A stretch of 64,000 nt of DNA from contig NZ_CP028858.1 in assembly GCF_003058365.1 (NCBI RefSeq), positions 1,178,001 through 1,242,000 of the forward strand, written 5' to 3'. Source of the stretch: Halococcoides cellulosivorans. Its GTDB lineage: Archaea; Halobacteriota; Halobacteria; Halobacteriales; Haloarculaceae. Position numbers and translations under genes: made by a program. Under the pieces are notes generated by a model, which saw nothing but the letters and a program-made list of their open reading frames with translations, was not told where the DNA came from and searched no databases. This document shows, piece after piece, positions 43,495-47,016 of the stretch (positions are counted from its first letter, which is position 1; each line of letters begins with the position of its first letter).

Positions 43495-44844
43495 TCACAG
43501 GAGTGCGATCACGGCGGCCGTGAGGCCGGCGGCCGCCGTCGCGAGGAAGTTGACGCCCTGATTTCCGACGACGCGACCTTCGATGGTCGCGCCGAGCAGG
43601 CTGTCGACCGTCATGCCGACGACGCCCGCGCCGACGATCACGAGCGCCCCCAGCGCACCGACCGACGGGAACGTGAGCACGGCGAGCACGCCGATCAGGC
43701 TCGCCCCGCCGAGTCCGGCGACCTCGCCTTGCCAGGTGATCGCGCCGTCGGTCCCCGGATCGACGACTTCGAAGGTCGTGATCAGGCGGGGCCGATCGAA
43801 CGTCCCACCGATCTCACTGGAGAGTGTGTCCGCGAGCGCCGCCGCGAGCGACCCCGCGAACGCCAACAAAAACGGCGTGGCGTCGAGACCGGTCAGGTCT
43901 GGACTCGCTGCCGCGCCGATCAGTGCGAACGTCGCGACCGTGGCGTTCGCGAGGACATTCGCGCTCCCGCGCGCGCCCTCGTCGGCTTCTGCGATGTCAC
44001 GGTCGACCTTGCGGTCGTATTTGAACTTCGTCGAGAGACCGCCGACACCGAAGAAGGTGACCAGGAGGAGCACCCACCCTGGGTCGCCGCCACCGAGGAC
44101 GATCGCGAGCAGACTGAGGAGGACGCCCGTGACCATGCCGTGGACCGACGCCGTCTGAAGCCGTCGGGCGACGTATCCGAGCGCGCCAGAGACGGCGATG
44201 CCCACCGCGACGATTCGGGGATCGCCCCCGACCGGGAGCACGGCGAGCACCCAGAGGGCGAGCGCGACCGAGACGAGGACGAGTGGGTCGTCACGATCGA
44301 CGAGCGTCACCCGAAGCAGCGCCGCGATCAAGGCGCCGACGACGCCGAGGAAGGCGATCTGAGCCAGCGGTGTCGCCTGCCCTCCACCGGCGAGGCGCTG
44401 AGCGACCGACAGCGCGATCGCACTTCCGAGGACCGCACCGCTCGCACCGCCGACGACGAACGCGGCGGTCGTGAGTTCCGAATCGCCACTGCCGTGGGTA
44501 GCCTGAGCGCCGACGGGCCCGATCGAGACGACGAGGACGGCGACGAGAAAGGCGACGACCGGCATGCCGAGGTGTGTCACAAGCAGTGTGAGCCCGCCGA
44601 TCGCGAGGCTGAACCCCGCGAGGCCGTACAGCCGGCGGTCCCGTCGATCGCCGGGGCGGGCGAACAACTCGAACAGCAGGCCGTCGTCGACGCTGAACAG
44701 CGCGATCCCCGAGATCACGAGAAAGGGCGCGGCGCTCGCGAAGGGGAGTGCCGCCTGTGGCAAGATCGCCCCGAGTGCGACCACGGGGACGACGAGCGAC
44801 CCAACGACGGCAAAGGCACTCGCCCGTCGGACTGGCGACGTCAC
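43495..44844 (-). CDS. DUF92 (TMEM19/VTE6-like) membrane protein, long form
   Basis: A 449-residue membrane protein, nearly twice the usual DUF92 length. The C-terminal half has the DUF92 signature: STKFKYDRKVDRDIAE, GARGSANVLANATVA, ADTLSSEIGG, TTFEVVDPGTDGAITW, DSLLGATIEGR. The N-terminal half (about residues 1-240) has six more hydrophobic stretches and may be a kinase-like phytol/dolichol domain. Plant VTE6 is a phytyl-phosphate kinase, so polyprenyl-phosphate metabolism is a reasonable inference here. It ends one base past the end of thiE, tail to tail, and starts next to the cis-prenyltransferase-like gene. Confidence 0.87.
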   Translation of the reverse strand: MTSPVRRASAFAVVGSLVVPVVALGAILPQAALPFASAAPFLVISGIALFSVDDGLLFELFARPGDRRDRRLYGLAGFSLAIGGLTLLVTHLGMPVVAFLVAVLVVSIGPVGAQATHGSGDSELTTAAFVVGGASGAVLGSAIALSVAQRLAGGGQATPLAQIAFLGVVGALIAALLRVTLVDRDDPLVLVSVALALWVLAVLPVGGDPRIVAVGIAVSGALGYVARRLQTASVHGMVTGVLLSLLAIVLGGGDPGWVLLLVTFFGVGGLSTKFKYDRKVDRDIAEADEGARGSANVLANATVATFALIGAAASPDLTGLDATPFLLAFAGSLAAALADTLSSEIGGTFDRPRLITTFEVVDPGTDGAITWQGEVAGLGGASLIGVLAVLTFPSVGALGALVIVGAGVVGMTVDSLLGATIEGRVVGNQGVNFLATAAAGLTAAVIALL

Positions 44845-44937: not shown

Positions 44938-45546
44938 GTGGGGCTGTTCGACCGCTATCTCGAAGTTCGCGTTCGCTCCAGCGACGCTGCCCTCCCGGAC
45001 TCGGTCGCACTCGTCATCACCGAGCGTGACCTCCTCGAACAGGGGGCGTACGACACGCTTGCCACGTTTTTCGATTGGGCGCTGGAGTTCGGCGCCGAGA
45101 CGGTCACACTGTACGTGAGCGTCCTCGACGAGGCCGCCATTCCGCCGCTCACCCGGTCGCTGGAGGACCTCGACGCGCCGGCCTCGATCGCCATTCGAAC
45201 GCCCGAGACCGACGAGCGCGCGGATGCGACGATCCAGGTGTCGATCGGGCTGGGCGGTCGCGCCGAGTTCGCGCGCGCCGTTCGTGACATCGCCGCCGAC
45301 GTCGAAGACGGCCAGATCGACCCCGAGGCGATCGACGAGGCGGCGATCGAGGGGCGTCTCGTTTTTCCCGAACCGCCCGATCTGCTCGTCAAGACCGGCG
45401 CCGAACGACTGTCGGATTTCATGATCTGGCAGACGGTCTACTCGGAGTTGTACTTCACCGACGTGAACTGGCGAGATTTCCGCAAGCGGGACTACCTCCG
45501 GGCGCTGCGGGACTACCAGCGCCGACAGCGGCGGTACGGAGAGTAG
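44938..45546 (+). CDS. Cis-prenyltransferase family protein lacking the catalytic Asp motif (NgBR-like candidate)
   Basis: A 202-residue protein of the undecaprenyl diphosphate synthase family. Its C-terminal half aligns with the family (DLLVKTGAERLSDFMIWQTVYSELYF, cited in part, and NWRDFRKRDYLRALRDYQ), and it ends RRYGE, that is, an R-x-G motif near the C-terminus. The N-terminal region that should hold MDGN with the catalytic Asp is instead DSVALVITERDLLEQGAYDTL. So it is unlikely to be active alone. It resembles the NgBR/Nus1 accessory subunits. GTG start. The true enzyme is the next gene, 1 base away on the other strand. Confidence 0.85.
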   Translation: MGLFDRYLEVRVRSSDAALPDSVALVITERDLLEQGAYDTLATFFDWALEFGAETVTLYVSVLDEAAIPPLTRSLEDLDAPASIAIRTPETDERADATIQVSIGLGGRAEFARAVRDIAADVEDGQIDPEAIDEAAIEGRLVFPEPPDLLVKTGAERLSDFMIWQTVYSELYFTDVNWRDFRKRDYLRALRDYQRRQRRYGE

Positions 45547-45547
45547 G

Positions 45548-46477
45548 TCAGTTCGGCCGGTCTCCCGTCTCGTCCGGCCGGTCGAGCAAGGCGTCGACGT
45601 CGGTCCGCTCCGGAACGGAGTCACGGAGTCGTCGGAGGACGGCGCGCGCCTCGTCGAGTTCGCAGTCTTGGACCGTTCGAAGCAAGGCGAGTGCGCGTCG
45701 AGCGCGCGTCCGGCGGTGAGAGGCGCGTCGGGACTCGTAGGTCCGAACGCCACGGAGGAGGTCGACTTTGCTGAACTCCGGCCAGTAGGGCGTACAGAAG
45801 TAAACGGCCGCCTCGTTGCCACTCGCCCGCCAGGGCAGGAAGTTGCTGGTCCGTTCGGCCCCACCAGTGCGGATGATCAAGTCGACCTCGTGGCCGGGGC
45901 CGTCGTACAGCGCGTCTTCGACGGTCGAAACGTCGATGTCCTCGGGTGTGATCTGGCCGGTTTCGACGCGGGCCGCGACTCGGCGGGCCGCCGTCAGGAG
46001 TTCGGCCCGACCCCCGTACGCCAGCGCGACGTTCAATCGAAACCGATCGTTGTCGGCCGTCTGGCCCTCGGCGTAGTCGATGGCCTCTCGGACGCGCTCG
46101 GGCAACCGATCCAGTTCCCCGACGGCGTGGATCCGCACCCCGGCCGCCTCGACCTCGTCGTGCTCGGCAAACGCCCGGAGTTTCTCTGCGATCAGATCGA
46201 ACAGCGCCTCGCGCTCCTCGGGCGGTCGTTTGAAGTTCTCCGTCGAGAACGCGTACAGCGTCAACTCCTCGATACCGAGTTCCGCACACCACCGCACCAT
46301 TCGCTCGGTCGTCTCCGCGCCTTCGCGGTGTCCAGAGGTGGTCTCCTCGTCTTGAGCGCGGGCGTACCGCCGGTTGCCGTCCTGGATGACGGCAACGTGT
46401 GTGGGCGTGCCGGCGATCTCCCGTTCGAGGAGGCGCCGATAGACCCGCCGACCCAGACCGCGGAGCCACGATCGCAT
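45548..46477 (-). CDS. uppS: Cis-prenyltransferase (undecaprenyl/dolichyl diphosphate synthase family)
   Basis: A 309-residue cis-prenyltransferase that elongates a trans-isoprenyl diphosphate with isopentenyl diphosphate to the polyprenyl glycan-carrier lipid. Catalytic motifs: VIQDGNRRYAR with Asp33, HREGAETTERMVRWC, LYAFSTENFKRP and RTGGAERTSNFLPWR. The C-terminal part (about 50 residues after SRRASHRR) is longer than in typical family members, and the position of the R-x-G motif is occupied by other residues. ATG at 46477; an in-frame ATG 27 bases upstream is possible. It is convergent with the non-catalytic-looking paralogue. Confidence 0.93.
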   Translation of the reverse strand: MRSWLRGLGRRVYRRLLEREIAGTPTHVAVIQDGNRRYARAQDEETTSGHREGAETTERMVRWCAELGIEELTLYAFSTENFKRPPEEREALFDLIAEKLRAFAEHDEVEAAGVRIHAVGELDRLPERVREAIDYAEGQTADNDRFRLNVALAYGGRAELLTAARRVAARVETGQITPEDIDVSTVEDALYDGPGHEVDLIIRTGGAERTSNFLPWRASGNEAAVYFCTPYWPEFSKVDLLRGVRTYESRRASHRRTRARRALALLRTVQDCELDEARAVLRRLRDSVPERTDVDALLDRPDETGDRPN

Positions 46478-46596: not shown

Positions 46597-46621
46597 CGAT
46601 CCCGTCGTGATCTGAGTTGCA

Positions 46622-46816
46622 ATGGCGACCGGTACTGTGGATTTTTTCCACGACACCAAAGGTTACGGCTTCATCGACACTGAGGACGCAGACGATGACG
46701 TCTTCTTCCACATGGAAGACGTCGGCGGCTCCGACCTCGAAGAAGGCCAAGACGTCGAATTCCAGATCGAACAGGCGGACCAGGGCCCCCGGGCGCTGGA
46801 ACTGCAGCGAGTGTGA
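46622..46816 (+). CDS. cspA: Cold-shock domain protein (first of a tandem pair)
   Basis: A 64-residue cold-shock domain, with RNP motifs KGYGFID and DVFFHMEDV. It is followed after only 5 bases by a second copy. It differs from the 17123 copy mostly in the central and C-terminal parts (ends ALELQRV). RNA chaperone role assumed from the family. The start ATG is preceded by the AT-rich box. Confidence 0.95.
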   Translation: MATGTVDFFHDTKGYGFIDTEDADDDVFFHMEDVGGSDLEEGQDVEFQIEQADQGPRALELQRV

Positions 46817-46821
46817 TCACA

Positions 46822-47016
46822 ATGGCAACCGGAACTGTAGACTTCTTCAACGACACTGGCGGGTACGGCTTCATCGATACCGAGGACGCAGACGAGGACG
46901 TGTTCTTCCACATGGAAGACGTCGGCGGTCCTGACCTCGAAGAGGGGCAGGAAGTCGAGTTCGAAATCGTCGAGGCCGAGAAGGGACCGCGCGCGAAAAA
47001 CCTGACGCGCCTGTAA
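46822..47016 (+). CDS. cspA: Cold-shock domain protein (second of the tandem pair)
   Basis: A 64-residue cold-shock domain beginning MATGTVDFFNDTGGYGF with FFHMEDVGGPDLEEG. The start at 46822 is chosen because the family begins with MATG; an in-frame extension by three codons upstream (MIT) is possible. It is likely cotranscribed with the first copy, as there is no room for a separate promoter in the 5-base gap. Its N-terminal half resembles the 17123 copy more than its neighbour does at the GGYGFI motif. Confidence 0.95.
   Translation: MATGTVDFFNDTGGYGFIDTEDADEDVFFHMEDVGGPDLEEGQEVEFEIVEAEKGPRAKNLTRL

Follow-up and report, generated by a model that had tools for sequence, protein, structure and literature searches.

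Two genes of the cis-prenyltransferase family lie tail to tail in the window that we analyzed, a stretch of 64,000 nucleotides from the archaeon Halococcoides cellulosivorans, and the single base 45547 is all that stands between their stop codons (Table 1). We call their products A and B. The original prediction, made from the letters alone, was that these convergent genes, one base apart, divide between them the motifs of one enzyme, with IQDGNRR and RTGGAERTSNF in a protein that lacks the C-terminal RXG of the family and an RXG end in a protein that lacks DGN. The translations agree in every particular: A reads SRRASHRR at the place of the RXG and then continues for ~58 more residues, and B reads VITE at the place of DGN and ends RRYGE.

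Table 1. Coordinates of the gene pair, its motifs, its neighbor and the third family member of the same genome
Feature	Position	Strand	Remarks
Putative subunit A, catalytic cis-prenyltransferase, 309 aa	45548..46477	minus	ATG start at 46477; PF01255
Putative subunit B, non-catalytic cis-prenyltransferase homologue, 202 aa	44938..45546	plus	GTG start at 44938; PF01255
IQDGNRR motif of A, Mg2+/allylic diphosphate site	46367..46387	minus	From translation; equivalent of DHDDS D34/R37/R38
RTGGAERTSNF motif of A, second (IPP) site	45839..45871	minus	Equivalents of DHDDS R205, R211, S213
C-terminal extension of A, residues 252-309 (~58 residues), in place of the RXG tail	45551..45724	minus	
RYG (RXG motif) of B, one residue short of the C-terminus	45532..45540	plus	B ends RRYGE
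DUF92 membrane protein, 449 aa, candidate prenyl-phosphate enzyme	43495..44844	minus	PF01940, 179 bits
Third, divergent cis-prenyltransferase, outside the window	C1:478913-479614	minus in the fetched locus	IPDGHRR; ends SLRRNEGR

Both proteins stand well above the curated Pfam cut-off of 27 bits for PF01255, A with 232 bits over model positions 1-215 and B with 103 bits (103.2) over positions 106-219 only. The best match of A in the PDB is human DHDDS (E 1e-44) and that of B is Escherichia coli UppS (E 8e-22), with the match confined to the C-terminal half of UppS; a profile built from ten B proteins also meets human NUS1/NgBR collinearly along B residues 15-202 (E 4e-4). The first part of the extension of A aligns with the C-terminal domain of DHDDS (phmmer), and helices within it, beside the helix-turn-helix feature of DHDDS, appear only in a low-confidence single-sequence AlphaFold model (the single-sequence models of both proteins are poor, with a mean pLDDT of 44 for A and 49 for B). 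By eye, there is no hydrophobic segment in the ~20 N-terminal residues that precede the B domain and hence no membrane anchor like that of NgBR, which carries an N-terminal transmembrane part.

Conservation across Haloarchaea

From fetched loci, we parsed 103 A proteins and 102 B proteins of haloarchaea. DGN is present in every one of the A proteins, and a terminal RXG is present in none (two have a chance RRG further inside the extension); conversely, R-[FY]-G-x is the C-terminus of 102/102 B proteins, and none of these has a DGN motif, the lone DG[NH] string being a chance DGH at residue 122. Nowhere in this set, then, are DGN and a C-terminal RXG found in one chain, as they are in the homodimeric single-chain UppS; what is found within the same genome is a DGN chain without RXG and an RXG chain without DGN, as in the heteromer of Methanosarcina mazei. 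The substrate-binding residues of DHDDS (D34, R37, R38, E81, N82, R85, R205, R211 and S213; PMC7573591) have equivalents that are invariant in 103/103 haloarchaeal A proteins. Almost all haloarchaeal B proteins keep KTG-x-ERLSDF, that is, the equivalents of the second-site residues, with K for R205 and with R211 and S213 retained.

One might suppose that B is a duplicate gene in decay, with no function left, for its Mg2+ site is gone and its N-terminal half goes unmatched by PF01255. We give this idea practically no credence: B is universal and 201-203 aa long in most haloarchaea, its C-terminus is invariant in 102/102, and the mean column identity across ten diverse B proteins is 77%. Co-occurrence of the pair across haloarchaea, which had been named as a check, is close to complete. 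At least two PF01255 genes are present in 115/116 haloarchaeal genomes, and among the matches listed one gene is full length and ends near model position 216, and the other covers the C-terminal part and stops at 219. In the one remaining genome, an assembly of 120 contigs, B was found, and A has probably fallen into an assembly gap. Searches with B itself found it in 31/31 haloarchaeal genomes. The two genes are not always close: in some genomes, a long distance separates A from B. Five genomes (G060, G067, G097, G104 and G133) have two A-type genes and one B. They recall yeast, where one Nus1 serves both Rer2 and Srt1.

The genome of H. cellulosivorans (2.72 Mb, one contig) holds three PF01255 genes, namely A, B and the divergent third member of Table 1, and of the three, only B has an RXG end. 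Among 242 haloarchaeal genomes sampled, none has an orthologue of the third. In H. cellulosivorans itself, a gene for a phosphatase of the PAP2 superfamily is found near the third gene on the same strand.

Beyond Haloarchaea

The cis-prenyltransferase family is present in 117 of the 119 Halobacteriota genomes that we scanned, with at least two genes in each of the 117, and the two genomes without it belong to one taxonomic family. Wherever the proteins were parsed in detail (30/30 genomes), both an A type and a B type were there. The arrangement had been described as a haloarchaeal one, and its division of motifs is indeed conserved in haloarchaea, but it is equally kept in every Halobacteriota family from which the pair was parsed, and its reach is the whole phylum. 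Outside the haloarchaea, the details loosen: one B ends RKFGK and another RRRGL, and 4 of 32 A proteins have an R-x-G string near the end (QRIRAGE is an example), off-register or in a different setting. The long C-terminal extension, a likeness between A and DHDDS, is not general in Halobacteriota, being short or absent in some of the other members. As a separate observation, the A proteins of one Halobacteriota family (f13) stop soon after the domain, so RXG has been lost there without a long extension in its place.

Other archaea have the parts together. Asgard genomes hold the family in 114/119 cases, nearly always as one gene matching model positions 1-219, and the proteins sampled from Asgard, Thermoproteota and DPANN have ILDGNRR or a motif like it and, in nearly all cases, an RRFGx end (two Asgard proteins have RN[FY]G in place of RRFG). 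These single chains, one per genome in nearly all Asgard, thus unite what is divided between A and B, and with the UppS enzymes of E. coli and Micrococcus luteus, they represent the form of the same family in which one chain has both motifs.

The Methanosarcina Precedent

The original prediction pointed to a heteromeric cis-prenyltransferase in Methanosarcina, and such an enzyme has indeed been reported. According to PMC8131916, which cites earlier work, MM_0618 and MM_1083 of M. mazei, an organism of the same phylum as our pair, form a heteromeric enzyme with C45-50 products, and these products, the same paper says, match the C50 carrier of M. mazei. A Methanosarcina-like genome in our set (G205) has exactly three family members: one of the A type, one of the B type (ending RRYGR) and one that closely matches MM_0014 over its full length (E 7e-137). 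Since A, B and MM_0014 types are all that such a genome offers, the published heteromer is probably, by elimination among these sequences, the A/B pair. If so, the reading of A and B as two subunits is well supported, and its kind was already known. Haloarchaeal A and B are usually tail-to-tail neighbors, and haloarchaeal B has an almost invariant ERLSDF in place of the QKLSDF of the Methanosarcina-like B.

The same organism offers a warning. MM_0014, like A, has DGN and no RXG, yet it is a catalytically active homodimer (PMC8131916), so the loss of RXG alone is no proof that a protein depends on a partner. Could A likewise be active alone, with B in another role in the same pathway? MM_0014 was crystallized as just such an active homodimer (PMC8131916), and B can be far from A in the genome, both of which suit the idea. 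We consider it improbable all the same: the two proteins co-occur strictly and have lost complementary motifs over a whole phylum, a heteromer has been reported for the other two M. mazei paralogues, and B has kept without change the RXG tail, known in cis-prenyltransferases as the piece that reaches over the dimer face and completes an active site. MM_0014 and its relatives also differ from A in forming a separate clade on a long branch, in ending ITLGG and in needing no second kind of subunit for activity (PMC8131916). We asked whether the third H. cellulosivorans gene is of the MM_0014 type, and this assignment is not supported; the gene is a lone long branch and lacks the ITLGG tail.

A Proposed Two-Subunit Synthase

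We propose, with a good deal of confidence, that A and B together make up a single heteromeric cis-prenyltransferase, one subunit each, and that this carrier-lipid synthase arose by duplication and division of motifs. Its human and yeast counterparts, DHDDS/NgBR and Rer2/Nus1, are built in the same way: their catalytic subunit, like A, has DGN, lacks RXG and has a C-terminal extension, and their partner, like B, lacks DGN and ends in RXG plus one residue (RLGK in NgBR and RYGE in B). In the human complex, the tail of NgBR crosses the dimer interface into the DHDDS site, where its RXG segment holds the IPP-site phosphate through backbone nitrogens and its end contacts the FPP site (PMC7573591). 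A keeps all that DHDDS contributes to this site and is without the contribution of NgBR, and B has exactly that tail.

We infer the rest of the scheme (the complex, the insertion of the tail, the product, the pathway and the order of events) from sequence homology and the M. mazei precedent. A would hold the substrates and Mg2+ and carry out catalysis, in which an allylic primer is extended by IPP units. B, unable to bind the catalytic Mg2+, would dimerize with A by the face that cis-prenyltransferases normally use, and its C-terminal R-Y-G tail would enter the active site of A and complete the pocket there, the part that NgBR plays for DHDDS. The enzyme would thus make a long polyprenyl diphosphate, from which the dolichyl phosphate that carries N-glycans would be formed. 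One match to an STT3-type (AglB-like) oligosaccharyltransferase is present in the H. cellulosivorans genome, so a lipid-linked glycan pathway is to be expected there. At the second site, B is unlike NgBR, which has lost the second-site residues (KFGPVDSTLGF) where B keeps K-T-G-x-E-R-L-S. Without the Mg2+ aspartate, B has no active site of its own despite KTG-x-ERLSDF, but the second-site residues that haloarchaeal B retains may help to shape the dimer. Because B lacks the catalytic site, the family name undecaprenyl diphosphate synthase is misleading when applied to it.

The heteromeric kind of enzyme is already known from eukaryotes and from one methanogen, M. mazei. What we add is its phylum-wide distribution, the partial second site in haloarchaeal B and a conserved, divergently transcribed DUF92 neighbor. 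Two genes are thereby pinpointed for joint testing in genetically tractable haloarchaea. In the open-access literature that we searched, we found no papers on haloarchaeal heteromeric cis-prenyltransferases.

How Many Times Was the Enzyme Split?

The A proteins group into a single clade in our trees (SH-aLRT 91-97), and so do the B proteins (100). The pair is found throughout Halobacteriota, and single two-motif chains are found elsewhere, so it probably arose in the Halobacteriota line by duplication followed by division of the motifs. The ancestor would have been a single-chain enzyme with both motifs; after its duplication, the RXG tail would have disappeared from one copy and the DGN site from the other. 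Methanobacteriota and Thermoplasmatota lay outside the sample, so the split could be somewhat older than this.

A more sweeping view is that eukaryotes and archaea share the split, with B and NgBR, and A and DHDDS, descended from one archaeal pair. There is something to be said for it. DHDDS is, after all, the best PDB match of A, and a grouping of A with DHDDS is not rejected in an AU test (p 0.67); the grouping of DHDDS with the single-chain archaeal enzymes, however, escapes rejection equally (p 0.61). NUS1 falls beside B, with a support of 84, in a tree from which the third paralogues are left out, but it is a very long branch, and its position shifts between trees with the sampling. Haloarchaeal B and human NgBR even have the same VITE at the place of DGN; VITE is not conserved in the B proteins of other Halobacteriota, and the shared letters look like convergence. 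Above all, the nearest archaea to eukaryotes, the Asgard, have a single two-motif chain almost throughout. Taking these points together, we regard common descent of the split as unlikely.

We think it likely, on the pattern of motifs across genomes, that the archaeal split is independent of the eukaryotic one, and because the trees leave the placement of the eukaryotic proteins unsettled, this independence rests on distribution, chiefly on the Asgard single chains. Of the likeness to DHDDS/NgBR that had been put forward for the pair, the working principle stands, and shared descent of the split is what the distribution opposes. In the archaeal pair, the division of labor known from DHDDS and NgBR would then have arisen once more, apparently independently. 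Mutations in the human proteins cause disease.

A DUF92 Neighbor

A and B are convergent neighbors in 72/101 haloarchaeal loci, with a median spacing of ~150 bp, and also in several other Halobacteriota families. On its other side, B diverges across 93 bp from the gene of a DUF92 membrane protein (139.5 bits against TIGR00297, which is below the cut-off of 206). B and DUF92 are divergent neighbors in 71/101 haloarchaeal loci, mostly 80-160 bp apart, and in 12 of the ~31 B loci of other Halobacteriota; the two stay together in many genomes that have A elsewhere.

What might such a neighbor do? We take the DUF92 family to include the plant phytyl-phosphate kinase VTE6. The activity of VTE6 is supported by PMC10849223, which leaves its domain unnamed. 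By analogy, it is a reasonable guess that the archaeal DUF92 protein acts on prenyl phosphates and is a candidate in the carrier-lipid pathway. The later steps of archaeal dolichyl phosphate synthesis have been described as uncharacterized (PMC5088576), and for another step of this pathway the conserved neighbor is a concrete candidate. In the same open-access literature, we found nothing on DUF92 in archaeal lipid metabolism. Tentatively, and with somewhat more doubt than belief, we can join the pieces into a larger picture, in which the two-subunit synthase has two origins, one in eukaryotes and one near the base of Halobacteriota, each time through an ancestral chain being divided alike into a DGN subunit and an RXG subunit, and the DUF92 protein tied to B handles prenyl or polyprenyl phosphates at a missing step of archaeal dolichyl phosphate metabolism.

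Two minor observations belong to the surroundings and to the sampled assemblies. Just beyond A, at 46600-47000, there are short, repeated cold-shock-like coding sequences (near-repeated translations of open reading frames). Two contigs filed under a Desulfosporosinus metagenome-assembled genome (L134 and L135) encode an EF1A that is 73-74% identical to that of yeast, a sign of eukaryotic contamination.
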